From Opitutales bacterium (lineage in GTDB: Bacteria; Verrucomicrobiota; Verrucomicrobiia; Opitutales; Intestinicryptomonadaceae): DNA of 64,000 bases. Positions 6,109 through 43,042 of this stretch are shown here, in pieces. Location of the stretch: the NCBI GenBank assembly GCA_015061945.1, contig SUVP01000003.1:1-64000 (forward strand), written 5' to 3'. Each line of letters opens with the position of its first letter. The stretch's first letter is position 1. The notes below the pieces were generated by a model. It was not told where the DNA came from. It worked only from the letters and a program-made list of their open reading frames with translations, and searched no databases. The position numbers and the translations under genes are program-made.

Positions 6109-6837
6109 TTATCTTACGATATTATGTAAGCACGAAATCATCTTTTGCCTCTCCAAAAAACACTTATATTTTGTCGATTGATATTTATCTATAATTAAAG
6201 TCCAATGTTCATTTGTAAATTCTTCAAACTTTCGTAAAGGACACTTTTCAATCAAGGATTCGTGAGTCATTATAAGCGTAAACCAATCATCAAATGAAAA
6301 TTTTTTAACGCATTTACATTTATCAAAATTTGATACATCTTCTACAATTTTATCAACTGCCCCTTGCACTATATAGTCCCATAATTGAGGTTGCTTTTTC
6401 AATAAACGTCCGACGGTATAATCACTAATTTTAAGCAATTTCTTTGCGTACATTTCCGCAAATTGAGGCTGATATGATAATATAAATAACCAATTATCGC
6501 CCCTTAGGGTATCTAAAACTTTGCATTTATCTATCATCTCTGGATGCAGTGCTAAAATTGCACTCCAAAGAAACCTGTTGTTATATTTGATTGCTTCCTT
6601 TAGAAATTCTGGATGTTTTTCCAAGATACTGAAAAATGCCCCTGATTGGTGATAGTAGCAATGCTCAATGAAACCTCTCAAGTTTTTCTTAGATTCAAAA
6701 TATAAAAATAAACAATAAAAACCTTCTGGATATAGACTTGCCATACGCTTAAGAGCAGGTCTTTTTTCTATCAACTCTTTCCATTGGTTTACGTTTAATG
6801 TTTTAAAATATCTTGTCTGAAAGTTCACAAAATCCAT
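6109..6837 (-). CDS. unrecognised protein with W..LL..QPQF-type repeats (paralogue)
   Basis: A 242-residue soluble protein. ATG at 6837 is preferred because AAAGG lies 6 bases upstream; an in-frame upstream extension to a TTG near 6897 is possible. It carries degenerate repeats of about 24 residues: WSAILALHPEMIDKC, WLFILSYQPQF, VGRLLKKQPQLWDY, WFTLIMTHESLIEKC, WTLIIDKYQST. They share a pattern of Trp, two hydrophobics, then (Q/H)P and often a Cys. The pattern recalls repeat proteins of unknown role in gut Verrucomicrobiota, but no function follows. It is the first gene of the left minus-strand block, 161 bases before its paralogue, so it may have its own transcript. Confidence 0.6.
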   Translation of the reverse strand: MDFVNFQTRYFKTLNVNQWKELIEKRPALKRMASLYPEGFYCLFLYFESKKNLRGFIEHCYYHQSGAFFSILEKHPEFLKEAIKYNNRFLWSAILALHPEMIDKCKVLDTLRGDNWLFILSYQPQFAEMYAKKLLKISDYTVGRLLKKQPQLWDYIVQGAVDKIVEDVSNFDKCKCVKKFSFDDWFTLIMTHESLIEKCPLRKFEEFTNEHWTLIIDKYQSTKYKCFLERQKMISCLHNIVR

Positions 6838-27518: not shown

Positions 27519-30500
27519 TTATATTTCTTTTTCGTTTAACCAACGGAATGATACAATCTTGAAACGTCTTCCGAGTTCCTTATTGATATCGCTCAATTCA
27601 TCTAAGTGTTCGTTGAAGTTTCTTGTATCTTTGATATCTGCTTGGTATCCGATTTCAATTTCACGACCTGATATACGCCATGGTTCTTGGTTTACCGTTG
27701 TTGTATCCATATATTCTGGAGTTCTTTGGATTACCATTTCGCACCACGCTTTACCTTCAACTGTTCCTGTTACTGGATTGCGAACTTCGCCGTATGCACG
27801 AATCTTGAACGTATCTGAACGAACAGTTAAGAACGAACCGAGTCTTGAAAGGATATCTTGTTGCATCAAGTATGCAGGTATACCTGTTGCTTGTGGACCG
27901 ATTGCTCCACGCCAATTTTCCCAAATCTTTCTTGGATCTTTAAATTCAGAAAGGTCGGCATCTTCCTTAATCATTTCAGCGATATTTCTTGTGTTATCTA
28001 CTGAAATAATTGTGTTTTCGTCGTCGTGGAATGCCTTATTGATTGATGTAGAATCGATAGCTGCTTGCAATACACCCTTTTGAACATGACCAATTCGGTG
28101 TGTTATATTGTCGGCATATTCTTTTTCGAGATTTTTTCTATCATCTTTCATTTTTGGCAATTCGATGAGGTCTTCGCCGAGGTAGTTTTCGGTATAGCGT
28201 TGTTCTGCCGACATCACCGACGATACACGGTTGACAAAGTGCGACATCGAGTAGAACGGACCTCTATCCTTGACGTGTTCGACGATTGCCGTTGCCAACT
28301 TTTCGATTTCATCGTTATTAAGACCACGGAAGCCTTGGAATGCGTTATCTTCCATATCGGCAGTCATTGTGTCAGAGAATTCTTCCGACGAATATGGAGC
28401 AGACCAACGGTAGAATGGTGCCATGTTCGTCATCGGCTTTGATCTACCTGTATAGTCTCTTACTTCGATTCCGTAGTATGTTGACAAAATTGCCTTCCAT
28501 GCATCGATGCTTGTTGAATTTACATTGAATGCGCCGTTAATCCACATCTTTGATGCGTTTTGTTCAAACTGATCTTCTGTGTCTGCAGATTTCAATTCTG
28601 TCAAACGGAGTTGTTCTTCCTTGCTTACGCAGTATTGGAGACGTGGGTTTTGTGGATGGGCAATTTCCGTATCCATTGTGTTTTCGGCTTCATCATTACG
28701 ATATGGAAGTGTTGAGAAGTAGTATTCGTCCCACAATGTATCGTTAAGCAACCACGACATATCGTAAAGGACACTTCTATCTTCGTAATAATCTTCGCCA
28801 TTTAAGTTTCTGGTACTGTCGGATTTTCCGTTCCACGAGTAATTGTCAGATCCGTTATTTTCGTTGTGCATCAAGCCACCGCCGTCAATCCATGTAACAT
28901 GGTATGGTCTTTCAGGCGATACACGCGAAGGGCACAACGAGTTGCCGATTGCTATCGATGGATGTTGCAATTCGTTAGCTTGAACTGAAATCGACTTTTC
29001 GTTTATCTTTTCGCCTTGTGGATTTGTGTAGTACCATACTGGACCTGCATATTTCCCGACGCCAAATGTCAAATTAGCACTTGCGAGGTTTGCAGGGTTA
29101 GAGACAACTTCTGTCTTTCTCAAGATGTGGAAGAGTGGGGCTCTATCTGTACCTACAACTTCTTTCAAGCCAACTCTGACGTGTCCGTTAACTTCGTGAA
29201 CTGTGTAGCCAACGTCCGACAAACCTTCAGTGTCGCCACTATCCTTTTCGCCGTATGCTTGGTTGATTGATTGTGTAAACTTACATACTTTAGAGATAGT
29301 GTTGTATTTCTTAATATCGCTAAATTTCTTCGCATTGATACCAGAGCCGTCAGGATAATATCCCGATGCTTGAAGGTTCATATTTACATATACACGAGCG
29401 TTAAAGAATGGTTCGTGCCCGAATTCATTTTCAGACGCATACGGCAACGAGAACACAATACCATACGGAACTGTTCCCTTTGTATTGTTGATACAAGAGT
29501 GCAACGCATCTTCGTATTTGTAGTTATTTGCGTTGATATTAAGGTTTCTATGCTTTTGAATCGCTTTTGGTGTTAAGTCTGCCAAGCCCTCCATTGTTTT
29601 TGTTTGGTTAGGGTCTGCCAAATTTTTACTACTCGACTTTGATTCAGAGTGAATTGTTGTTGTTATCGGATAATAGTTGGCAAGGTAGCTTGGGTTAGTA
29701 AGCTGTGCCTTATCAAAACTTCTCCAATAATTTGCCGAGTGGCGACGTGGATTAAGTGTAAGCCAATTCAGATAGAATCTTGCTCTACCTATTGGTTGTA
29801 ATGATATACCACTGTTGTCGCCTGTATCGTATTTTGATTCATCAAAAGCTGTGTCTACAAGTTTGACATCTGCTACGCCATTAAATGAACCGAGATAGTA
29901 GTCAACCGAGTTGCTTGTGTTTGCACTACCTTCTCTGTTATATCGGACATCTCTTGCTCCGAATGCTGCCAAGCTCAAAAGTCTTGTTCCCGAGTTTGTG
30001 TATGCCCAACCAGGACAGTGGAAGTTATATCTTACCTTATAGTTGTTATAACCTGCAGCCGATTTAGTCGTATCTGGCGATTGTGATGGGTCAGGGAAGC
30101 TATGTTTTTTGAAGCTGAAGAAACGTGAACCAATCATACTTACGAGTGTTGGTCCTTTAACGTGTGTATCGCCAGCACCCCATTCTGAACCGACTTTATT
30201 TGAATTTGAGTATCTGCTAAATCTGAAACCTTCGCGTTTCCAAATCCAAATATCGAGGTGCAACATTGGGTATGAAAGTTCGTGGCGGTGGATAGGATTA
30301 CTCAACTGTGCGTGGTCGTCCCAAACTCTTGGCGTATTTGATGTATCGCCAGGCATTGAGTAGTCGGGATTATAACCACCTATACCGTATCCCAATGGAG
30401 TTGTGTTAAACATTGCACCCAACACACGTTTTCCCAAATAGCTATTAGCATTACCTTCATCGCTGGGATAGGTTGCTTGTATATCTTGCATATCGATATA

Positions 30501-33383
30501 AAGCTGATTGATTGATGGGTTCATTCTTTCCCCGTTGAAAGCTCTGCATTGTGCTCGAGAAATTTCGTTGAGGTCGAACATTACATATTTGTTATCCATA
30601 CGCCAGTCTTGGAGACCGTTGCCACCGCCACCAGCTGTTTTGAATTTTGCAGAGTGTTCTGATTCTGGGTGTGGAATATCTACATAGAAGCAACCGCCGA
30701 GTTTTCCGCCGTCATCGAGACCATGCAACATTGCATCTTTATCTTCATAGAGCGATGTTGTATTTGTTTTTTCGATAACGCCATTAGGTCCATCTTCGTT
30801 GTTTTGTGAGCCTCTTGTTGGGTCGCCAACGTAGCTGATGATTTTTCTCATCGAGAAAATTTTTGCTTTACCAGGTTCAATACCCTTTGAGTCGTACGCC
30901 ATAAAGAACAAGTTAGCGTCGTCGTGCGAGTCTGTTTGGCTTGCTGTGTGTGGATTACGTGAGTCAATCGAACGCTGTGCCGTAAAGAGCATATAGTCGT
31001 CAGATCCTGTCGACTTGTTGATATTCGACCCGTGATAGCCGTGTGTAACAGCGTACAAAATGTTATTTAAGAACAATGGGATTTTCGCAACACGTGCAGC
31101 GTAGCGTTGAGTGTTGCCAGCTTGTGTTGCCGCTTCTGATTGCGACGGATAGATGTTGCCGTTGTCGACAATTCCACGCCAGTGTCTGTACCATTGTGAT
31201 TTTGGGTATGTGAGTGGAATGTTGTCTTTTGCCCATGCTTGTTGGATAATTGGGTTTGCACGGCTGATTTTTGTTCCGTAGCCGAGCGGATATGCTGTTA
31301 CATAATTACTGTTTGTCTTACTTCTGTCGGTCTTATTTCCGATATAATAACCTCTATGGAAGCGTGTATATTTAGACAACCACCAACCTGTTTGCTTTAC
31401 GCTTTCCCTATCAAAGAATCTTTGGTTTGCTTGGTTTTCTTTTTTCGACCAGAAGTTTGCACCCAAACGGAATGGTACATAGAATTGTTGCAGATAGTTT
31501 GAATCTGGAATTTCTCTTGTAAGTTCAGGTGCTAATGATGGGATTGCTTCTGTACGCAAGTCTCGTAAGCATTGGAAATATCCGTCGCCAGTTTCGTATC
31601 CGATTGCGAATCTGAATGCACCGACTGGACTCTTAAATTGACCCCATACACGAATTGCATAATATGTTTCGCCTTTAATTTTTGTATCGAATGGATTGTA
31701 GAGAATCAACAACGGCATAATGTGCAATCGCAAGCCGTATTTACTTCCGCCGTAGTTGACAAATGTTGGGACATAGAACACTTGGAAACGCTTTACAACA
31801 GGCTTGAGACCAAAACGGTCGTCTGTTTGTACACGTTCGTTAAGAGTTGCCCTTTCTGCCAAATCTTCAGCACGCAAATTGTAGTATGAACGCAACTGAT
31901 CCCACAATGGACCACCACTATCTTTTGCGATAAATTCATCATCGAACATTTCCATTAGGCGTTTGATTGCACTCTTGCCGTCTGGGTCTGATATGAATTC
32001 GTTGCCGTACATTTGAGGACCAAACATATGACCTTTACCTTTGAGAATACGTTGTGTTTGTCCTGCCTTTTGTGGATCAAAATTGTATTGGTGCAATTTG
32101 TCGTGTTGCAATGGGTATGCTGTTGTTTTGTAATCGTAGCCAGCAACGCCATAAGGTCTTTCAAAATATTCTGGTTTGTTGTTATTGTCTTTATCGCCGA
32201 CAATTTCAGTTTCGTTGCCGAAGTCTTTTCTTGTCAAACCGAGTGAAAGGTCTTTCTTTAAGCCACCGTCGCGAACGTTAACGAGCAATCCCTTGGTATC
32301 GAACGATGCACTGTGGAAGAACATCTTTGATAATTGTTGTGTTTCAGGGATAGAACCCGAACGGAAAATATCAAGTTGTGATACGTCGCTAAGGTTTCTG
32401 ATTCTTGAAATCGACGAAGTATCGTCGCCATCATTGAAGTCAAAATCGAATGCGTTTGGACCTGCACGACCGCTTCCACCAGGGATTGTTACCCCGTGAA
32501 TACCCGAGTAGAATGGCAAACTTTGTGCGCGATAATCAATTCTTTCAGCGTGTTGGATTGCCTCTTTGCTTGCGACTGCATTCAATGATGCTTTTTGGTT
32601 TTCGTCTGCAACCCACCATGCAATGCGAGTTTCTTTACCGTCGGTAATTGTATCGCCAGTAACTGGATTTGGATCTACATCGAGTTTTACCAAAGGTGCG
32701 AGAACGTCTTGTTGTGGGGCTCTTGCTCCTTGCGAGTCGCTCGCAGAACCGCCTGATACGAGTCTTGCGTATGTGCCGTCTTCGAGTTGTGATGTTGGAA
32801 GATATTTTGCTGGAACGTCGCTCCCGAGTTTTGTCGAGCGAACGATATTACCAGATACGAGCCATGTAACAGCTTTTTCAACTGTGTTTGTTACATATTC
32901 AGAGCGTGCTTGTTCTCTGAGTTGCAATTTTGGATGGTATCCACGACGTGCGTCCCACACGCCGACCCAATAACGATTTTGTGATATTGCGTTGTCGTCG
33001 ATTCTTTCGGCTTCGTCGCGTTCGATATCCATCGGCGATGCCCACCACTCATACTTTTTATCTTTTTCGAGTGCTGTGATTGATTCAGATATGATAGGGT
33101 CAAACATCGTGGCATTTGCAGTGATGCGTGTGTCTGGACCTAATGCCGACTGCACACGACTCATCGCTTGGTATGCCGCAAACTTCGCCGCCTGTTTAGC
33201 TTTGAAGTCTATCATCGCTTGGCGACTCAGACGCATTTGCATCTGCACCATTGTCGCAAGCGTGACGATTAACAGTACCATAAAGCCCATCAAAGCGAGC
33301 GACAATACGAGTGCGAACGCCTTTTTATTTGACGGCTTTTGTTTCTTTGAAAGGGAAGGGGTATTTATGAAGTTCATATTCAT
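27519..33383 (-). CDS. giant prepilin-like protein, Verru_Chthon cassette A-like
   Basis: A 1954-residue protein. ATG at 33383 (MNMNFINTP) is chosen because it follows AGAGAA, while the longer open frame upstream runs into the terminator of the preceding operon. A basic leader (SKKQKPSNKK) precedes one hydrophobic helix AFALVLSLALMGFMVLLIV at residues 22-40 and an amphipathic helix with RLSRQAMIDFKAKQAAKFAA, the type IV pilin/GspK-like start. The rest is an extracytoplasmic mosaic rich in Asn, Asp, Tyr and Gly. The layout resembles the TIGR02600 Verru_Chthon cassette protein A, but B, C and D partners are not in the window, so the family call is tentative. Function unknown; perhaps surface or secretion-linked. 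Confidence 0.6.
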   Translation of the reverse strand: MNMNFINTPSLSKKQKPSNKKAFALVLSLALMGFMVLLIVTLATMVQMQMRLSRQAMIDFKAKQAAKFAAYQAMSRVQSALGPDTRITANATMFDPIISESITALEKDKKYEWWASPMDIERDEAERIDDNAISQNRYWVGVWDARRGYHPKLQLREQARSEYVTNTVEKAVTWLVSGNIVRSTKLGSDVPAKYLPTSQLEDGTYARLVSGGSASDSQGARAPQQDVLAPLVKLDVDPNPVTGDTITDGKETRIAWWVADENQKASLNAVASKEAIQHAERIDYRAQSLPFYSGIHGVTIPGGSGRAGPNAFDFDFNDGDDTSSISRIRNLSDVSQLDIFRSGSIPETQQLSKMFFHSASFDTKGLLVNVRDGGLKKDLSLGLTRKDFGNETEIVGDKDNNNKPEYFERPYGVAGYDYKTTAYPLQHDKLHQYNFDPQKAGQTQRILKGKGHMFGPQMYGNEFISDPDGKSAIKRLMEMFDDEFIAKDSGGPLWDQLRSYYNLRAEDLAERATLNERVQTDDRFGLKPVVKRFQVFYVPTFVNYGGSKYGLRLHIMPLLILYNPFDTKIKGETYYAIRVWGQFKSPVGAFRFAIGYETGDGYFQCLRDLRTEAIPSLAPELTREIPDSNYLQQFYVPFRLGANFWSKKENQANQRFFDRESVKQTGWWLSKYTRFHRGYYIGNKTDRSKTNSNYVTAYPLGYGTKISRANPIIQQAWAKDNIPLTYPKSQWYRHWRGIVDNGNIYPSQSEAATQAGNTQRYAARVAKIPLFLNNILYAVTHGYHGSNINKSTGSDDYMLFTAQRSIDSRNPHTASQTDSHDDANLFFMAYDSKGIEPGKAKIFSMRKIISYVGDPTRGSQNNEDGPNGVIEKTNTTSLYEDKDAMLHGLDDGGKLGGCFYVDIPHPESEHSAKFKTAGGGGNGLQDWRMDNKYVMFDLNEISRAQCRAFNGERMNPSINQLYIDMQDIQATYPSDEGNANSYLGKRVLGAMFNTTPLGYGIGGYNPDYSMPGDTSNTPRVWDDHAQLSNPIHRHELSYPMLHLDIWIWKREGFRFSRYSNSNKVGSEWGAGDTHVKGPTLVSMIGSRFFSFKKHSFPDPSQSPDTTKSAAGYNNYKVRYNFHCPGWAYTNSGTRLLSLAAFGARDVRYNREGSANTSNSVDYYLGSFNGVADVKLVDTAFDESKYDTGDNSGISLQPIGRARFYLNWLTLNPRRHSANYWRSFDKAQLTNPSYLANYYPITTTIHSESKSSSKNLADPNQTKTMEGLADLTPKAIQKHRNLNINANNYKYEDALHSCINNTKGTVPYGIVFSLPYASENEFGHEPFFNARVYVNMNLQASGYYPDGSGINAKKFSDIKKYNTISKVCKFTQSINQAYGEKDSGDTEGLSDVGYTVHEVNGHVRVGLKEVVGTDRAPLFHILRKTEVVSNPANLASANLTFGVGKYAGPVWYYTNPQGEKINEKSISVQANELQHPSIAIGNSLCPSRVSPERPYHVTWIDGGGLMHNENNGSDNYSWNGKSDSTRNLNGEDYYEDRSVLYDMSWLLNDTLWDEYYFSTLPYRNDEAENTMDTEIAHPQNPRLQYCVSKEEQLRLTELKSADTEDQFEQNASKMWINGAFNVNSTSIDAWKAILSTYYGIEVRDYTGRSKPMTNMAPFYRWSAPYSSEEFSDTMTADMEDNAFQGFRGLNNDEIEKLATAIVEHVKDRGPFYSMSHFVNRVSSVMSAEQRYTENYLGEDLIELPKMKDDRKNLEKEYADNITHRIGHVQKGVLQAAIDSTSINKAFHDDENTIISVDNTRNIAEMIKEDADLSEFKDPRKIWENWRGAIGPQATGIPAYLMQQDILSRLGSFLTVRSDTFKIRAYGEVRNPVTGTVEGKAWCEMVIQRTPEYMDTTTVNQEPWRISGREIEIGYQADIKDTRNFNEHLDELSDINKELGRRFKIVSFRWLNEKEI

Positions 33384-33496
33384 TTTCTCTAATATAAAAA
33401 AGCTATATACACTGCGACCACTAATCAAGCAAAATCTTCTCTTATTTCTCATTGTTTTTGACATTCTTTTTGGCTTTTTGTTCGACACGCATTTAC

Positions 33497-33561: not shown

Positions 33562-34011
33562 TTATCGCTTCTTTATGAAATCGAGCATTTCTTCTTGCAT
33601 AACGAGCAGTGTGATATTTTGTATGTCGTCGTCGATTTTTGTCATTTCTGCGAAATCGTCTTCGGTAAGGACTCCTTGAGGCAATGATGCGTTTGCACTC
33701 GCCAGTATTACCGATAATATCACTCCGACCGCAACTGCCGATGCTGTCGAGTACGAAACGAATTTTTCGAGAAAGCGTCGGTTTACATATTTGATTTTTT
33801 CAAGGGTAGATTCTGTTATGCTTGGGAAATCTACTTGTTTTGCCAAGAGAGTGTCGACTTTCTCATCTAATCGAGATTCCATTTTGTCGATTTTTGCGAC
33901 TTCGTTCATAACGGAATCGGTAAATTTTTCGGACGTTTTGAAGGCATCGGCACTGAGAAGTGTCGAGAGCAATGCGTCTATTTCTTTTTCGTTTGAATCT
34001 GATATTTTCAT
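33562..34011 (-). CDS. probable membrane anti-sigma factor
   Basis: A 149-residue single-pass membrane protein. ATG at 34011 overlaps the sigma stop as ATGA, which couples their translation; a longer open frame upstream lies inside the sigma gene. Residues 1-80 are charged and helical, residues 84-107 form one membrane segment (SYSTASAVAVGVILSVILAS), and a short acidic tail follows. No zinc-binding HxxxCxxC motif is visible, so it is not a classic ZAS anti-sigma; the role is inferred from position and topology. Confidence 0.6.
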   Translation of the reverse strand: MKISDSNEKEIDALLSTLLSADAFKTSEKFTDSVMNEVAKIDKMESRLDEKVDTLLAKQVDFPSITESTLEKIKYVNRRFLEKFVSYSTASAVAVGVILSVILASANASLPQGVLTEDDFAEMTKIDDDIQNITLLVMQEEMLDFIKKR

Positions 34012-34646
34012 CTTGATGCTTGGCTGTTTGGGGTGTTCGCTTTTTTGAGTGCATCTCGCAACGATATTCTTGCACGATGTATCCACGTTTTTACCGATTG
34101 CAAGTTTGCTTGCATTATATCGGCTATTTCTTCGTACGAAAGTTCCTGTTGCTTTAACAACAAGATTGCTGTTCGCTGATTTTCTGGGAGGGTTTCTACG
34201 GTTTTGTAAAAAATTTCTTCGAGTTCTTTGAGGTCTGAATGTGTGTCAGAATCGTCGCTATACTCCATTTCAAAAGGGTCGGACACGTCTGCGGGTCGGC
34301 GTACATTCTTGCGATGTTCACTTATCAATACATTGCGAGCTATACTAAATAAGTATGTTGAAAATTTAGCTTTGGGCTTGTCGGAATCTGTCCCAAGAAT
34401 GTAATTTGCGTATGTCTGACGTGCTTTGTACAGGTTTACAAAAGTCAACTGTGCCATATCTTGCGAGGAGTATACGTCGTTGCACGAACGGAAAAAATAA
34501 TTCATCAAAGGCTTTTGCCATTTCTCGACTATCATCCTGAATGCGTGCTGTGATCCTTCGGCAACTTGGCACATTAATGCACAATCACTATCTATGTCTA
34601 ACGTGATGTTTTCGCATAGTTGCTCGCTATTTTCTATTTTTTTCAT
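34008..34646 (-). CDS. ECF-type RNA polymerase sigma factor
   Basis: A 212-residue sigma-70 family protein with only regions 2 and 4. Region 2 is seen from AFRMIVEKWQKPLMNYFF through DMAQLTFVNLYKAR to FSTYLFSIARNVLISEHRK; region 4 from LPENQRTAILLLKQQELSYE to the recognition helix with ANLQSVKTWIHRAR. It is the first gene of a two-gene operon with the putative anti-sigma, so the pair probably answers an envelope signal. The regulon is not identifiable; the downstream prepilin-like gene is a candidate. Confidence 0.92.
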   Translation of the reverse strand: MKKIENSEQLCENITLDIDSDCALMCQVAEGSQHAFRMIVEKWQKPLMNYFFRSCNDVYSSQDMAQLTFVNLYKARQTYANYILGTDSDKPKAKFSTYLFSIARNVLISEHRKNVRRPADVSDPFEMEYSDDSDTHSDLKELEEIFYKTVETLPENQRTAILLLKQQELSYEEIADIMQANLQSVKTWIHRARISLRDALKKANTPNSQASR

Positions 34647-36022: not shown

Positions 36023-37918
36023 CTATTTTCTTCTGCGATAGATTGCCAAGCCGAGAGCCAAGCTACCGAGAATCATCGCCCATTCTGCTGGTTCTGGAAC
36101 TGCTGGAGCAACTGCTGAGAGCCACCATACGCCTGCGATATTATCTTTTACCCAATAGAGTTGTTCCGCACCATTAACAATGATTTGAGAGAGATAGTTA
36201 TCGTCAGCATTTGTGTAATTTACGATACCAAATGCTTTTTCACTAAAGCCGTTGATTACAATTTTATCGCCTGCGTCCATTGATGTGTAGTTATCCAAAC
36301 CACCATTGCTTACAAAGTCAGTCAATATGAGCTTTGCACCTTTTGAAAGGTTGATATTTAAGACGAGGTCTTCATCTGATTGTTCAAAGCCAATTCCCTT
36401 TAGATATGCTGATGCGTTTTCGTAGATAAAGAAGTTTGATGCAGCCTTTGTTGTAGTACCTTTTTTTGTTTGGATACTTTGCAAGAGTGTTGCATTTTTT
36501 GCATCTAATGTTATGCCCTTACCGACAAAGAATTTACCTCCGAAAAGGTCGGCACTATTACCCAATGCCAAGTTTGTGTTGAGAACAACATCGTTAGAAT
36601 TAAAGGTAATACCACTTGCTGCAGTTGCGATATATTTACCACCATGTGCTTCAAATCTACCTTCGATAGTAAGTGAGTAGTGGTTGTCTATTACCTTAGT
36701 ATTATTATTTGTTGTGTTGATAATAAGTGTACCACCTTTTTCAACAACAGAAGCACCAGCGTTGATATATGATGTAGTTGAGCTTGAAGTATTGTTGATT
36801 GTCATCTTTGAGCCATCAACAAGTTTGAGTGCTGTAGAACGTGTTCTTAACTGACCCAATGTGATATCTGCGGTTGAACCAATTGAAACATTTGGTCCTA
36901 CTGTTGTTTTATCCCAAAGCATTTGTCCACCAACATTGAGTTTACCATTGATTACAGCAGTTACGCCTTCTTTAAAAGTCAATGCACCTGTTGTTGTCAG
37001 CGATCCAGTCTCTTCGATTGTAATCGATGATGCACCACCTGAAGTTGTTGTGAAAGTTTCTGTTTTAACTTCACCAGCAATCGTTAAATTTGTATATTCA
37101 GAAAGAGAAATATCTGTTGCAACATTGAGTTTGCCATTAGATTCGATCGAAAGAGTTGAATCTGTACCAGCTTCAGTAGAGAGGCGATTGAGTGTTGCTG
37201 TACCATTTTTAAGATTAAAGCTTGAACCACTACGCAATACCATGTTGCGAAGGTTTATCGAACCACCATTGTCAACTGTTATTTGAGCACCACCTTCGTC
37301 AGCGTTATCACTAAAGTCGTTAACTGCTGTGAGTGATCCATTGATTTCCCATATAGCTCTGCCCGTCGAACCAAATGTATTAGAGCTATTGATTGCACCA
37401 TTTACGATAAATTTACTTGTTGTATTTGTTGCGTCAGCTTTTACCCAAATAGATGAAGATTCAACCGTTATACCTTTGCCGATTGTAACAGTTCTTGTAT
37501 CTGTTGCATCGTTAGGGTCGGTAGATGTTGCTATATCTTGATTTGTTTGAAGAATAATTTTTGCAGATGCTCCTTCATTTGCTACCGAGTAAGAAATGTC
37601 GGTGTAATAACTGTTGAAATCCATTGCGTTTTTTGCAAATGAAACAGATGCACCATCGTCAAAGACAAAGTTTACATCGCAATTTGTTCCACCGGTTCCA
37701 CTGATTTTAAAACCAGCATAACCATCGCTGGCAAGGACTGTATTCTCGCCCTTTACATAGATGTTGCCAGTACCATTCACCCCACCACCTTGCCAAAGAA
37801 GTGTATTTTGTATTGTTTGGTTTTCCAATACAAAACCATCTTTAACATATGTATATGTTTCTGCCGATAACGCTGACGCTGTTGCAAGTGCAGATAGGGT
37901 AATTAAATATTTTTTCAT
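36023..37918 (-). CDS. PEP-CTERM surface protein with beta-helix-like repeats (paralogue 1)
   Basis: A 631-residue secreted protein with signal peptide MKKYLITLSALATASALSA and a C-terminal PEP-CTERM sorting tag: VPEPAEWAMILGSL, a membrane helix and RRRK. The body is Asn/Thr/Gly-rich with recurring short strands (GGSINLRNMVLRSGSSFNLK), like autotransporter or pectin-lyase-type beta-helices. An exosortase would cut at the PEP motif and fix the protein to the outer surface; no exosortase gene lies in the window. It is one of three tandem paralogues separated by hairpin arrays. Function is likely adhesion or glycan binding, inferred. Confidence 0.8.
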   Translation of the reverse strand: MKKYLITLSALATASALSAETYTYVKDGFVLENQTIQNTLLWQGGGVNGTGNIYVKGENTVLASDGYAGFKISGTGGTNCDVNFVFDDGASVSFAKNAMDFNSYYTDISYSVANEGASAKIILQTNQDIATSTDPNDATDTRTVTIGKGITVESSSIWVKADATNTTSKFIVNGAINSSNTFGSTGRAIWEINGSLTAVNDFSDNADEGGAQITVDNGGSINLRNMVLRSGSSFNLKNGTATLNRLSTEAGTDSTLSIESNGKLNVATDISLSEYTNLTIAGEVKTETFTTTSGGASSITIEETGSLTTTGALTFKEGVTAVINGKLNVGGQMLWDKTTVGPNVSIGSTADITLGQLRTRSTALKLVDGSKMTINNTSSSTTSYINAGASVVEKGGTLIINTTNNNTKVIDNHYSLTIEGRFEAHGGKYIATAASGITFNSNDVVLNTNLALGNSADLFGGKFFVGKGITLDAKNATLLQSIQTKKGTTTKAASNFFIYENASAYLKGIGFEQSDEDLVLNINLSKGAKLILTDFVSNGGLDNYTSMDAGDKIVINGFSEKAFGIVNYTNADDNYLSQIIVNGAEQLYWVKDNIAGVWWLSAVAPAVPEPAEWAMILGSLALGLAIYRRRK

Positions 37919-38021
37919 AATCGCGATTTCTTCCTAAAGTTTAAACTGCCTATCACATATACACTAATGTCAAGAAAAAATCAATAAAATATTTTAGGTA
38001 TGTTTTCCAAAATTGGTATGA
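37919..38021 (-). promoter_or_regulatory. conserved upstream block of PEP-CTERM gene 1
   Basis: The 100 bases before the gene are nearly identical to those before paralogue 2 (40469-40571). On the minus strand they contain TTGACA followed after about ten bases by an AT-rich -10-like stretch, then AGGA and TCGCGATT before the ATG. The shared block should hold the promoter and leader. Confidence 0.55.
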
Positions 38022-38551
38022 CAGACGAGTCTGCACTTCGGAGCTTCGCTCCTCTCGACGTTGTTCGCCACGACTATAATCGTGGCTTATTCTGTTATTT
38101 TACGCATTGCTTCGCAATCGCTTGTTGGCGGATATTTGTATATTTTTTATTTAAAAAAGACATCGCACCAGACGGAGTCTGGACTTCGGAACTCCGTTCC
38201 TCTCGACGTTGTTCGCAATGGCTAAGCCATTGCTTATTCTGTTTTCTTATCGCATTGGCAGACGTAGTCTGCACTTCGGAACTTCGTTCCTCCTTACCTT
38301 GTTCGCCACGACTATAATCGTGGCTTATCCTGTTATTTTATCGCATTGCTTCGCAATCGCTTGTTTGTGGATATGCGAGGGTTTTTATTTAAAAAAGACA
38401 TATTGATTTTTGTCGAATAAAAGAGCAAGCTATTGCGAAGCAATGCGGTGTGATAACAAAAAAGCCACGACTTAGTCGTGGCGTTCAACGTCGAGAGGAG
38501 CGAAGCTCCGAAGTCCAGACTCCGTCTGGTCCGAAGTGCAGACTCCGTCTG
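38022..38551. repeat. array of short palindromic hairpins, four-hairpin modules
   Basis: The gap between PEP-CTERM genes 1 and 2 is filled by perfect short hairpins in a fixed order, here named A-B-C-D. A is CCAGAC/GTCTGG (38168-38182 and variants at 38022 and 38259). B is GGAGC-TTC-GCTCC at 38040 or GGAAC-TTC-GTTCC at 38278. C is GCCACGA/TCGTGGC at 38067 and 38305 or GCAATGGC/GCCATTGC at 38215. D is ATTGC-TTC-GCAAT at 38105 and 38345. Spacers between hairpins are conserved. After an AT-rich centre near 38400 the order turns round (D-C-B-A-A, 38432-38550), and the last hairpin ends 4 bases before the stop codon of paralogue 2. Confidence 0.9.
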
Positions 38552-38554
38552 CTG

Positions 38555-40468
38555 CTATTTTCTTCTGCGATAGATTGCCAAACCGAGAGCCAAGCTACCG
38601 AGAATCATCGCCCATTCTGCTGGTTCTGGTACTGCTGGAGCAACTGCCGAAAGCCACCATACGTTAGCAACATTATCTTTTACCCAGTAGAATTGGTCAA
38701 CGCCACTTGCCGAGATTTGCGAGAGCAACGAATCGTCGCTTGCAGTGTGGTTTTTGATACCAATTGTATTTTCAGCAAAGTTGTTGATGACAATATTGTC
38801 GTTAGCATCAAGTGCACCATAGCCGTCGATTCCGCCGTTGCTGATGAAATCTGTAAGGATAAGTTTAGCACCTTCGCCGAGATTGATTGTCAATGTCAAA
38901 TCAGCTTCTGTGTTGTAGAAACCTATACCTTTGAAGTATGTTGTTGAGTTCTTAACCAAATAAAGCAAGGCTTCTTCCTTTTTACCTGTAGGGTTTGTTT
39001 CTGTGATTGTCGCTGGGTTAATTTGTTTTGAAATGAGCAATGCTGAATCTTGTGCATTCAAAGTGCGTCCTTGGTTAACTTGGAATTTGCCACCATAAAG
39101 GTCGCTATTATTGCCTATCGCGATGTTTGTATTTTTAATTGTTACATCATCAGAATCAATAACGATACCACCGCGTGCAGTTGTTAGCCACTTCCCACCG
39201 TCAATTATCGCAGTACCAAAAATTGTCAACGAAGCGTGGTTTGCGATAGATTGTGTATTTTGGTTTTTTGTGTTGATTATCAAAGTAGCACCTTTTTCGA
39301 TAGTAGAACCACTGCCAGCGTTAACAAACGAATTGCTTGAAGAATCGTTGTTGATAGTCAATTTTGCACCACTTGTGAGTATCAATGGGAGGGAACGTGT
39401 ACGGAATCTCTGTGTTGTGATTTCTGCAGTTGAACCGATTGTAACAGAAAGTGTACCTGTTCCTTCTTTGTCGAAAAGGAATTCTCCACCACAATTGATT
39501 TTTCCGTCGATTGTTGCAGTTACACCTCTTTGTAAGTTCAAATTACCTGTAGTTGTCAATTCAGCACCTTCAGCAACATTGAATGTTGATGTTCCGCTAT
39601 TGAGTGTCATAAAGCTTCCATCAACTGTCGCTGTTCCTTTGAGGTCAAACGAGGTATTTTTTGAAAGTGTTACAGATGTTGCTGTAAAAGATGAACCTTT
39701 TGCAACTGAAATCGATGTTGTACCATCTGTAGTAAACGATTTTAATGACATTGCACCATTTATGATGTCGACCTTAGTTCCATCTCTGAGTACTGCATTG
39801 CGTTCTAATTCAACAGAGCCACCATTATTGATTGTTAGTTGAACGCCACCTGTGTCATCACCGTTATCGCTAAAATCTAAACCGCCGGTCAATTTGCCGT
39901 TGACTTCAATAATAGCATTTCCTTTTGTGAAAATTGTGTTTGTAACATTAACTGTGCCATTTACAACAAATTTGTTTATTGTGTTTGTAGCATCGCTTTG
40001 GATTGTTAATGTATTTTTCATTTCTGCATTTACACCAGAGCCGATTGTAACACTTCTTGTATCTGTTACATTATTTGGGTCTGACGATAAAGCGAGGGTT
40101 TGATTTGCATTAAAAATTACTTTTGCACTTGTCGCATTTTCAGCGAGATTATACGAAATATCCGTATATTTTTCATTAAAGCTAAAACCGTTGGACGTAT
40201 ATGTTAACTGTGCGTTGTCAGACAGAACAAAGTTTAAGTCTACATTTAAACCCCCTGTACCACTTATTGTGACTCCTTTAAATGTGTTTACTCCGTTTAC
40301 ATATACATTCCCTGTTGGTTCGGTATACGGTGTATCGTAGTTGCCTTTCCAAAGCAAATTGTCTTCAACTGTCTCGTTTTCAAGAACGCTTCCGGTGAAT
40401 ATATCGAAATACGCACTTGCTGTTGATGCCAAAGCAAGTGCAGATAGGGTAATTAAGTATTTTTTCAT
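38555..40468 (-). CDS. PEP-CTERM surface protein with beta-helix-like repeats (paralogue 2)
   Basis: A 637-residue secreted protein with signal peptide MKKYLITLSALALASTASA and the same VPEPAEWAMILGSL-helix-RRRK sorting tail as paralogue 1. The N-terminal 130 residues and the body align well with paralogue 1 (VLENETVEDNLLWKG against VLENQTIQNTLLWQG), so they arose by duplication. The last 70 codons are almost identical at DNA level to paralogue 3. Its stop lies 4 bases from the right end of the first hairpin array. Anchoring would need an exosortase encoded elsewhere. Confidence 0.8.
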   Translation of the reverse strand: MKKYLITLSALALASTASAYFDIFTGSVLENETVEDNLLWKGNYDTPYTEPTGNVYVNGVNTFKGVTISGTGGLNVDLNFVLSDNAQLTYTSNGFSFNEKYTDISYNLAENATSAKVIFNANQTLALSSDPNNVTDTRSVTIGSGVNAEMKNTLTIQSDATNTINKFVVNGTVNVTNTIFTKGNAIIEVNGKLTGGLDFSDNGDDTGGVQLTINNGGSVELERNAVLRDGTKVDIINGAMSLKSFTTDGTTSISVAKGSSFTATSVTLSKNTSFDLKGTATVDGSFMTLNSGTSTFNVAEGAELTTTGNLNLQRGVTATIDGKINCGGEFLFDKEGTGTLSVTIGSTAEITTQRFRTRSLPLILTSGAKLTINNDSSSNSFVNAGSGSTIEKGATLIINTKNQNTQSIANHASLTIFGTAIIDGGKWLTTARGGIVIDSDDVTIKNTNIAIGNNSDLYGGKFQVNQGRTLNAQDSALLISKQINPATITETNPTGKKEEALLYLVKNSTTYFKGIGFYNTEADLTLTINLGEGAKLILTDFISNGGIDGYGALDANDNIVINNFAENTIGIKNHTASDDSLLSQISASGVDQFYWVKDNVANVWWLSAVAPAVPEPAEWAMILGSLALGLAIYRRRK

Positions 40469-40571: not shown

Positions 40572-41121
40572 CCAGACGTAGTCTGCACTTCGGACCAGAC
40601 GGAGTCTGGACTTCGGAACTTCGTTCCTCTCGACGTTGAACGCAATGGCTATAGCCATTGCTTATTCTGTTTTCTTATCGCATCGCTTCGCAATCGCTTG
40701 TTGACGGATATTTGTATATTTTTTATTTAAAAAAGACATCGCACCAGACGGAGTCTGGACTTCGGAACTTCGTTCCTCCTTACCTTGTTCGCCACGACTA
40801 TAATCGTGGCTTATCCTGTTATTTTATCGCATTGCTTCGCAATCGCTTGTTGGCGGATTTACGAGGGTTTTTATTTAAAAAAAGATATATTCGTTTTTTT
40901 TTGTAGAATAAAAAAGAGCAAGCTATTGCGAAGCAATGCGGTGTGATAACAAAAAAGCCACGATTATAGTCGTGGCGTTCAACGTCGAGAGGAGCGAAGC
41001 TCCGAAGTCCAGACTGCGTCTGGTTGCGAAGCAATGCGGTGAGATAACAAAAAAGCCACGATTATAGTCGTGGCGTTCAACGTCGAGAGGAGCGAAGCTC
41101 CGAAGTGCAGACTCCGTCTGC
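40572..41121. repeat. second array of short palindromic hairpins
   Basis: Same module order as the first array. The left half reads A, A, B, C (GCAATGGC/GCCATTGC form, with TATA loop), a D unit with one mismatch, linker, A, B, C (GCCACGA/TCGTGGC form) and D up to about 40855. An AT-rich centre lies near 40860-40915. The right half is inverted and holds two rounds of D-C-B-A (40925-41033 and 41025-41121). The A units differ in the loop (GTA, GGA, TCC, TGC). It ends 2-3 bases before the stop codon of paralogue 3. Confidence 0.9.
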
Positions 41122-41123
41122 TG

Positions 41124-42803
41124 CTATTTTCTTCTGCGATAGATTGTAAAACCGAGAGCCAAGCTACCGAGAATCATCGCCCATTCTGCTGGTTCTGGTA
41201 CTGCTGGAGCAACTGCCGAAAGCCACCATACGTTAGCAACATTATCTTTTACCCAGTAGAATTGGTCAACGCCACTTGCCGAGATTTGCGATAGCAACGA
41301 ATCGTCGCTATCGATATGGTTTTTAATACCGAATGTGTTTTCGGCAAAACCATTGATTACTATTTTATCGTCAGTGCCAAGTGTGTTGAATCCACTAAGA
41401 ACGTCTGCATCAATAAATTCATTAAGAATTAAAGTTGAACCTTTGCCGAAAGTAATTTGAAGTGTATCGGCTGTGCTCATTTCGCTGAACGCAATACCGT
41501 TGAGTTTTAATGAGACATTATCAGCCAATTCCAAATATGATGTATTTGATTGTTTTCCTTGGTGGCTTGCTGTCATCAATGTTGCTTCTGAAAAATCATT
41601 TGAAGCATTTACTACGAGTTTTCCACCTGTTACTTCACTTGTTATATCTTTTTCGCCCAAGAGGATATTTGTTTTGATAACATTGCCAGTAGAATTAATT
41701 ATTGCACTTCGTGAGCTAATTGCGATATATGTACCACCTTCAACGTTAAGTTTGCCATCAACAGTCAATTTATAATAAATTTTAGCAAGCTTTTCTGTGT
41801 TGATATTTGTTTTAATAGAAAGTTCTGCATTTTCTGCAACATTAACATTACCTGCAACTGTGAGCAATGCACGATATTTGAGTTCCGATGTATTATTGAT
41901 TATAACTTTTGAATTTCCGTTGATATTCAAATCTGCTGAACCTGAACGCATATAGAGCGAGTTTGCGTTGATTGTCGCATTATCGCCAAGTGTTATGCTT
42001 GCGTATGTGTTGTTAGTGTCGTTTCTGTCAAAAGTTATATCTTTTGCAGAGAATGAACCATTTAATATGAGTTTTGAGGTATCAGCAAATGTAGCATTGG
42101 AAGCAAACGAAAAACTTGCACCTTCTGCAACAACGATATTTGATGCTCCTGTAACTCCCAACGAGCCTGTAGATGAGTACGAACCACCGATATCTGCGTC
42201 AAGACCGATAAAAGAAGTTCCTCCAGTAGTTGTTTGCCAGTTGCCGTTCATTGTGAATTTTGAACCTTCAGCACCTGTGATTTTTACTGCTGCGTTGCTT
42301 TTTACGTTCAAACCTTTTCCAAAAGAGAGGTTTCTTTTCTTAACAGTGGAAGTAGTTGTTAGGTCGAAGATAATACCACCATTTAAGATCATATTGGCAC
42401 TTGTTGCGTCGTCTGCGAGGTAGAAACTAAATGCTACTGCCGAATCAGCCTTTGAGTTATAGCTAAGGCAACTGCTCGAACTTAATTCTAATGATGAGCC
42501 TTGTTGGAATATAAAATCCAAGTCGGCACGAGGTCCGCCCAAAGAAGAACTCAATATGATTTGCATTGCTTTAAATGCTGTATTTGCATCAACACCAACG
42601 TATGCTGGTGAATAATCTGTATCGTCAATACCTTCACGTCCGTAAGATGCCAACCAGCCGTCGACTTCAGTTCTACCTGCGCCATATGCAGTTGAAAGCA
42701 TAATTGGGTTCTCAGGATCTGCCGAACCGCTGAAATTTAGGTTTGTTACACCTTGTGCAGAGAGAGCAGAAAGGGCAAAAAGAAGTGTGATAGTCTTTTT
42801 CAT
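41124..42803 (-). CDS. PEP-CTERM surface protein (paralogue 3)
   Basis: A 559-residue secreted protein. ATG at 42803 gives the signal peptide MKKTITLLFALSALSAQG; a longer open frame upstream would put hydrophobic sequence in front of it. The body has many short beta strands with Asn, Ser and Thr (GNSKVIINNTSELKYRALLT). The tail is the same VPEPAEWAMILGSL sorting signal, with one change in the helix (LGFTIYRRRK). The N-terminal part is clearly less like the other two, while the last 70 codons are nearly identical to paralogue 2, which suggests gene conversion at the 3' end. Confidence 0.8.
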   Translation of the reverse strand: MKKTITLLFALSALSAQGVTNLNFSGSADPENPIMLSTAYGAGRTEVDGWLASYGREGIDDTDYSPAYVGVDANTAFKAMQIILSSSLGGPRADLDFIFQQGSSLELSSSSCLSYNSKADSAVAFSFYLADDATSANMILNGGIIFDLTTTSTVKKRNLSFGKGLNVKSNAAVKITGAEGSKFTMNGNWQTTTGGTSFIGLDADIGGSYSSTGSLGVTGASNIVVAEGASFSFASNATFADTSKLILNGSFSAKDITFDRNDTNNTYASITLGDNATINANSLYMRSGSADLNINGNSKVIINNTSELKYRALLTVAGNVNVAENAELSIKTNINTEKLAKIYYKLTVDGKLNVEGGTYIAISSRSAIINSTGNVIKTNILLGEKDITSEVTGGKLVVNASNDFSEATLMTASHQGKQSNTSYLELADNVSLKLNGIAFSEMSTADTLQITFGKGSTLILNEFIDADVLSGFNTLGTDDKIVINGFAENTFGIKNHIDSDDSLLSQISASGVDQFYWVKDNVANVWWLSAVAPAVPEPAEWAMILGSLALGFTIYRRRK

Positions 42804-43042
42804 AATTAGTGGAAATATTAAACAAATAAAAACAAATAAGTATCTTAAATTAAAATGCAAGTTTTTTTTAACGCATAGATAAATCTTTATTTATTAAATT
42901 ATTTGTGTCTTATTTTTAAGATGAAAAAAGTGTTGATAATTTTTCAAAAAAATCCAATATCTTTCAAAGAGATGGGGCAATTATATTTATGTGCATTCGG
43001 TTTGCATATTTTGTGTCGCTTTCTTGAAAACTTTCTGTATCT

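Follow-up and report, generated by a model that had tools for sequence, protein, structure and literature searches.

The window, i.e., the whole 64,000-nucleotide stretch of DNA from an Opitutales bacterium analyzed here, encodes between positions 36023 and 42860 three paralogous PEP-CTERM-tailed proteins without a Pfam or NCBIfam domain, and arrays of hairpins lie between their genes. Array 1 (38021–38552) is located between two of these minus-strand genes and contains four copies of a module of ~107 nt, identified by direct reading together with repeat and inverted-repeat detection, in which four hairpins follow one another in the order H1-H2-H3-H4. Three of the copies are on the plus strand and one is on the minus strand. 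The features of the locus are as follows:

36023–37918, minus strand: paralogous PEP-CTERM-tailed gene, the start of which faces array 1
38021–38126, plus strand: module copy 1, with H1 at 38022–38033 (loop GA), H2 at 38040–38052, H3 at 38067–38086, and H4 at 38104–38121
38168–38251, plus strand: module copy 2, with H1 loop GGA, H2 loop TCC, and the H3 variant GCAATGGCTAAGCCATTGC at 38215–38233; H4 is cut short and fused to H1 of copy 3
38258–38365, plus strand: module copy 3, complete, with H1 loop GTA, H3 at 38305–38324, and H4
38424–38529, minus strand: module copy 4, inverted, so that the hairpin order is reversed on the plus strand, with H3 at 38464–38482
38555–40468, minus strand: PEP-CTERM-tailed protein gene (tail VPEPAEWAMILGSLALGLAIYRRRK), at the stop codon of which H1 of module copy 4 begins
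40572–41121: paralogous array 2, with modules at 40595–40702 (plus), 40744–40851 (plus), 40917–41023 (minus), and 41026–41121 (minus)
41124–42860, minus strand: paralogous PEP-CTERM-tailed gene, at the stop codon of which array 2 begins

An extra, duplicated H1 lies beside module copy 4 (38538–38552), and array 2 contains an additional H1 at 40572–40586. The product of 38555–40468 has no Pfam or NCBIfam match. Elsewhere in the window, 27519–33488 encodes a 1989-aa protein with no Pfam match, and the gene of a sigma-70-family factor is found nearby (34008–34646).

In the genome to which the window belongs (2.5 Mb in 15 contigs), H1 reads [C/G]CAGAC-GNA-GTCTG[G/C] and is followed by the spacer ACTTC, H2 reads GGARC-TTC-GYTCC and is followed by a ~14-nt spacer, TCTCGACGTTGNNC, H3 reads GCCACGACTATAATCGTGGC and is followed by the T-rich spacer TTTTTTGTTATCACACC, and H4 reads GCATTGC-TTC-GCAATNGCTTG. 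Approximately 28 module copies occur in this genome at about nine sites, comprising arrays 1 and 2 and seven further sites, mostly 3′ of genes. Surplus H1 units are chained between the stop codon and H2. An earlier note, made from the letters of the window, had described a four-hairpin module recurring in fixed order with conserved spacers at 38022–38551. Direct reading and repeat detection bear this out, except that the fourth of the four copies is inverted. The loops that it quoted (GA, GGA, and GTA in H1; TTC and TCC in H2) were also found, as were the contrasting stem pairs GGAGC/GCTCC vs GGAAC/GTTCC and GCCACGA/TCGTGGC vs GCAATGGC/GCCATTGC.

As the earlier note had proposed, the module was sought in the genome and its relatives, using a covariance model and 372 genomes of the order, most of them drafts and each representing one species. 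Besides the window genome (G000, 28 copies), four relatives were found to carry it, namely G005 (4 copies) and G008 (76 copies; CASFDK01, an uncultured Verrucomicrobiota), which belong to the same genus, and G017 (3 copies) and G018 (38 copies), which belong to a sister genus. All five carriers are members of the window's own family. The covariance model detected no module in the other 367 genomes of the order, and a 387-genome sample of the phylum contained it in no genome beyond the carriers; among the genomes searched, the module is restricted to one bacterial family. Between species, the hairpin order is the same and the spacers remain recognizable, while the stems are different. The H4 outer sequence GCATT...AATNGC is conserved across the genera, with a mean major-base frequency of 0.93–0.94 (0.49 for H1 stems), and so is the terminator layout. 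With Rfam covariance models, only tRNAs were matched and no described family was, and the searches made of phages, plasmids, and IMG/VR returned no module match. The exact H4 core, when sought in one-per-species genomes, was found only in the G008 contig and in one Microbulbifer match, the latter probably due to chance. Searches of the open-licence literature returned no Verrucomicrobia family beyond the GTAG REPs of Opitutus terrae. Within the scope of that literature the repeat family is apparently undescribed, in agreement with the earlier statement that no known family corresponds to the module and that neither REP/BIME nor CRISPR fits.

What the earlier reading missed is that most copies are located 3′ of genes or tRNAs and that H3, together with the T tract behind it, resembles a terminator. 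In counts based on codon-trained gene calls, 70 of 102 leading copies (~69%) are preceded by a gene or tRNA on the same strand, and 16 of 54 begin within −6 to +10 nt of a gene end, where 5 are expected. The distance from stop codon to H3 peaks at 51 nt, which places the start of H1 at the stop codon, and convergent intergenic regions account for 29/67 of those with modules vs 12/67 of those without. About a third of leading copies, including the plus-strand copies of array 1, are not behind a same-strand gene; in the arrays of the window, plus-strand copies face the module behind the next minus-strand gene and follow no plus-strand gene themselves. An intrinsic terminator is recognized by a G+C-rich stem-loop that lies 3′ of a gene and runs into a T tract. 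H3 has this anatomy, and in the window it was flagged by pattern as a terminator together with its T tract, for example in module copy 4, where H3 and the TTTTTTGTT behind it form a terminator-like arrangement. Judging from this layout, the modules probably end transcription behind genes. Since H4 lies past the terminator, its stem is not explicable by termination of the same transcript.

Among the ten tRNAs adjoining modules, six are tRNA-Leu, distributed over four species (loci L085, L092, L093, L136, L154, and L013). At L013 (G000:C10, 5259–6060), tRNA-Leu is followed by four modules, and directly before the second copy part of the tRNA 3′ end is repeated. At the one orthologous tRNA-Leu locus compared, a module is found behind tRNA-Leu(TAG) in G008 and is absent there in G004, the intergenic DNA being too diverged to show an empty site or a target-site duplication. 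A second hairpin-rich tandem family occurs behind tRNA-Asp at positions 6220–6700 of locus L015 (G000:C4:51000-63000). The units of this family contain TTGCGTAGCAA, AAATTGCGAAGCAATTT, CCCGAAGGG, and GAGCACTACTGTGCGAGC, and it terminates in a duplicated tRNA 3′ end with its terminator.

Pairing within the stems was tested in 21 copies of the window genome, aligned with MAFFT without structure information. In this alignment, 98.2% of stem cells are paired, compared with 30–42% after sliding the partner by 1–3 columns, and 18 cells are changed on both sides vs 4.6 in shuffles, with 0 of 500 shuffles reaching 18. In an alignment of 89 copies from five genomes fitted to the covariance model, 460 double-change cells are present vs 130 ± 13 in shuffles; copies are related by duplication, so these copy counts are not counts of independent events. 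The covariation that the earlier note had read from array 1 holds with these additional copies, including those of another genus. It can also be followed stepwise in H3, where the stems GCCACGA, GCAATGA, and GCAATGG each occur with the matching 3′ arm, the intermediate GCAATGA/TCATTGC at C2:234976 standing between the two H3 stem pairs of array 1. The alignments support palindromy, rather than primary sequence, as the property that is kept.

Wobble pairs are almost missing from the stems. Over 142 copies, the stem pairs comprise 2979 Watson-Crick, 6 G-T, 16 A-C, and 4 other pairs, which places G-U at 0.2% and below A-C, although the shortness of module stems, which hides mismatches, and the pairing score used in parsing may contribute to this low value. 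Other terminators of the same genomes, when parsed identically, contain 4.5–10.5% non-Watson-Crick pairs and 1.3–3.7% G-T. In addition, the outer pair of H1 swaps from C-G to G-C without a wobble intermediate. The triloops follow the pattern C-GNA-G with N free, read on the plus strand for H1 and on the minus strand for H2 and for most H4 hairpins, and this pattern is found on either strand in 105 of 158 module triloop hairpins vs 28 of 182 outside modules. C-GNA-G is an exceptionally stable DNA mini-hairpin loop, as in d(GCGAAGC).

The hairpins of a module also assort among copies. For G018, 17 distinct combinations were counted among the 21 copies in which each of the four hairpins was typed, and association is no higher than with shuffled labels in five of the six hairpin pairs, the exception being H1-H2. 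The 23 copies of G008 form 15 combinations, with some association (H1-H2, H1-H4, and H3-H4). In this genome, the H1 types GCAGGC..GCCTGC, AAAGGC..GCCCTT, GGCGCG..CGCGCC, and GGGGGC..GCCCCC join several H3 and H4 types within unchanged spacers. Copies seem to trade hairpins as if these were cassettes: the assortment is readily explained by exchange or conversion of hairpin units, which is not the case for point mutation followed by selection. In G008, some of the H4 hairpins are enclosed by a longer palindrome, ATAAGTTCG...CGAACTTATA (C3, locus L020, about 1510–1560).

The earlier note had concluded from the covariation that secondary structure in RNA or single-stranded DNA is selected or copied. 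The keeping of palindromy agrees with this, though keeping or copying at the DNA level is favored over selection on RNA only, because G-U is nearly absent, the triloops are of the C-GNA-G type, and hairpins assort almost freely; the position of H4 beyond the terminator likewise points to palindromes at the DNA level. It could be proposed instead that the module is a structured RNA, either a 3′ UTR or a small RNA, evolving under ordinary compensatory selection, in which the four hairpins matter for termination, stability, or protein binding. The covariation is as such an RNA would produce it, module RNA is predicted to fold into four hairpins (z −2.4 to −4.8; −4.78 for module copy 3), and H3 is terminator-like in copies at gene ends. 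However, G-U pairs rarer than A-C pairs, outer C-G/G-C swaps in H1 that skip the wobble, an H4 beyond the terminator, and hairpins exchanged whole all argue against this explanation, which we consider unlikely.

Candidate enzymes were sought among the genomes of the family. The linked TnpA_REP suggested earlier is absent: none of the 19 family genomes gave a match to Y1_Tnp (TnpA_REP/RAYT) in a search that detected the positive controls, and a transposase of this type was rejected as the mover. A retroelement-derived repeat (group II intron, retron, or DGR) was also rejected, as the reverse transcriptase RVT_1 is missing in four of the five carriers (G000, G005, G008, and G017). It is present only in G018, which has two such genes (C86:2472-3104 and C245:7675-8190); no other genome of the family sample has one.

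These searches bear on a further alternative, that of a miniature transposon or REP-like element, in which a specialized transposase or other nuclease, one that needs folded DNA, would recognize hairpins of single-stranded DNA and mobilize them. Such an element would explain why the palindromes are perfect and why both strands have stable GNA loops, and it would fit the many copies, the patchy distribution, and the tandem and inverted arrays. Modules often start at TAG, which in G008 is the stop of 13 of 20 module-adjacent genes vs 27 of 82 others (p=0.011), and have C-GNA-G loops; the ends of REPs also supply TAG stops (PMC3733652). On the other hand, the enzyme searches found neither Y1_Tnp in any of the 19 genomes nor reverse transcriptase outside G018, and no GTAG or CGTC tag is conserved. 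An insertion needing TAG was rejected since TAA and TGA stops are used too. As a whole, we consider this explanation unlikely as well.

In E. coli, DNA hairpins are cut by the SbcD complex. SbcD (TIGR00619) was not detected over the cut-off in 18 of the 19 family genomes, G011 alone being positive; the same search matched 13 of 14 control genomes and exceeded the cut-off in 8 of these. The absence of SbcD may permit palindromes, though it does not distinguish carriers from non-carriers, and SbcD loss was rejected as the cause of the modules because module-free relatives lack SbcD as well. It is very unlikely that the modules are a functionless mutational by-product, i.e., passive palindromes whose growth and correction would be due to template switching in a lineage with few hairpin-cleaving nucleases, for although the SbcD result and the tandem duplications of H1 units and tRNA ends could be read in this way, module-free relatives share the deficiency, the H4 outer sequence and terminator layout are conserved across genera, and copies are concentrated at gene ends.

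The explanation that we prefer, with moderate confidence, is that the module is a lineage-specific, non-autonomous terminator repeat of 3′ ends, the palindromes of which would be kept and exchanged by copying at the DNA level; termination, mobility, and the mechanism of copying are here inferred. H1 and H2 would come after the stop codon, H3 and its T tract would halt RNA polymerase, and H4 would lie just beyond, so that the unit would serve genes and tRNAs as a composite intrinsic terminator and mRNA 3′ end. Within a genome, copies would spread non-autonomously and give rise to tandem duplicates. Their palindromes may be kept perfect when replication switches templates within a hairpin, and whole hairpins may be replaced between copies when the short spacers that these share allow ectopic exchange. 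Template switching is known to create and keep perfect hairpins in RNA genes (PMC8794818). No module showed the inverted loops that mark some template switches, and H1 loops remain GNA on one strand.

A more specific reading, which we put forward only tentatively, is that these gene-end elements are assembled from interchangeable hairpin cassettes, copied as units from one dispersed locus to another via the short conserved spacers by some enzyme or by replication template switching, which would yield combinatorial terminators. If true, a bacterial genome would possess a system of exchangeable DNA hairpins with C-GNA-G loops stable in single-stranded DNA. Well over 100 natural copies make it possible to track stem changes on both sides, the lack of wobble intermediates, and the exchange of hairpins, and selection vs template switching as the source of compensatory changes becomes directly testable in bacteria. 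Strong covariation need not imply a functional RNA. The modules would also constitute an apparently unlisted family of gene-ending repeats in gut-type Verrucomicrobiota.

The module shares several traits with the REP, BIME, and REPIN elements of the GTAG and CGTC superfamilies (PMC3733652; PMC8266576; PMC3116915), which are intergenic palindromes in tens of copies and in tandem or inverted arrays, show complementary stem changes between subfamilies, and frequently lie near gene ends, overlapping TAG stops. However, a REP unit is a single stem-loop of 20–40 bp, occurring singly, as dimers, or in groups, whereas the module comprises four different hairpins in fixed order over ~107 nt. REPs carry an unpaired GTAG or CGTC tag at one end of the palindrome, whereas the species consensus of the module has no conserved tag beside any hairpin, and GTAG arises in modules only by coincidence, where T occupies the N position of a GNA loop. 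The GTAG class of REPs has a RAYT in the genome, unlike the 19 genomes of the module family, though CGTC REPs likewise lack one (PMC3733652); the near-free exchange of hairpins is also unlike REPs. RNA hairpins maintained by template switching (PMC8794818) have in common with the module perfect stems and simultaneous changes on both sides, but those cases are rRNA and microRNA genes, whereas the module is an interspersed repeat whose copies undergo exchange. CRISPR arrays consist of identical direct repeats and unique spacers, in contrast to modules that are palindromic, occur in both orientations, and have conserved spacers. Pneumococcal BOX elements, composed of the boxA/B/C sequence modules, are likewise modular intergenic repeats, but by their general description are not made of freely exchanged hairpins. 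Intrinsic (rho-independent) terminators resemble H3 with its T tract, which here is one part of a four-hairpin unit common to many genes. Mitochondrial double-hairpin and repetitive hairpin-forming elements, together with yeast GC clusters, likewise consist of multi-hairpin palindromic repeats that have spread into intergenic DNA and for which no enzyme is known. The mitochondrial elements of sponges are reported to have conserved stems and variable loops (PMC2800124). Among known systems, the module most resembles these mitochondrial multi-hairpin elements, although it is bacterial and follows the opposite rule to that of the sponge elements, its stems varying while its loops are constrained.
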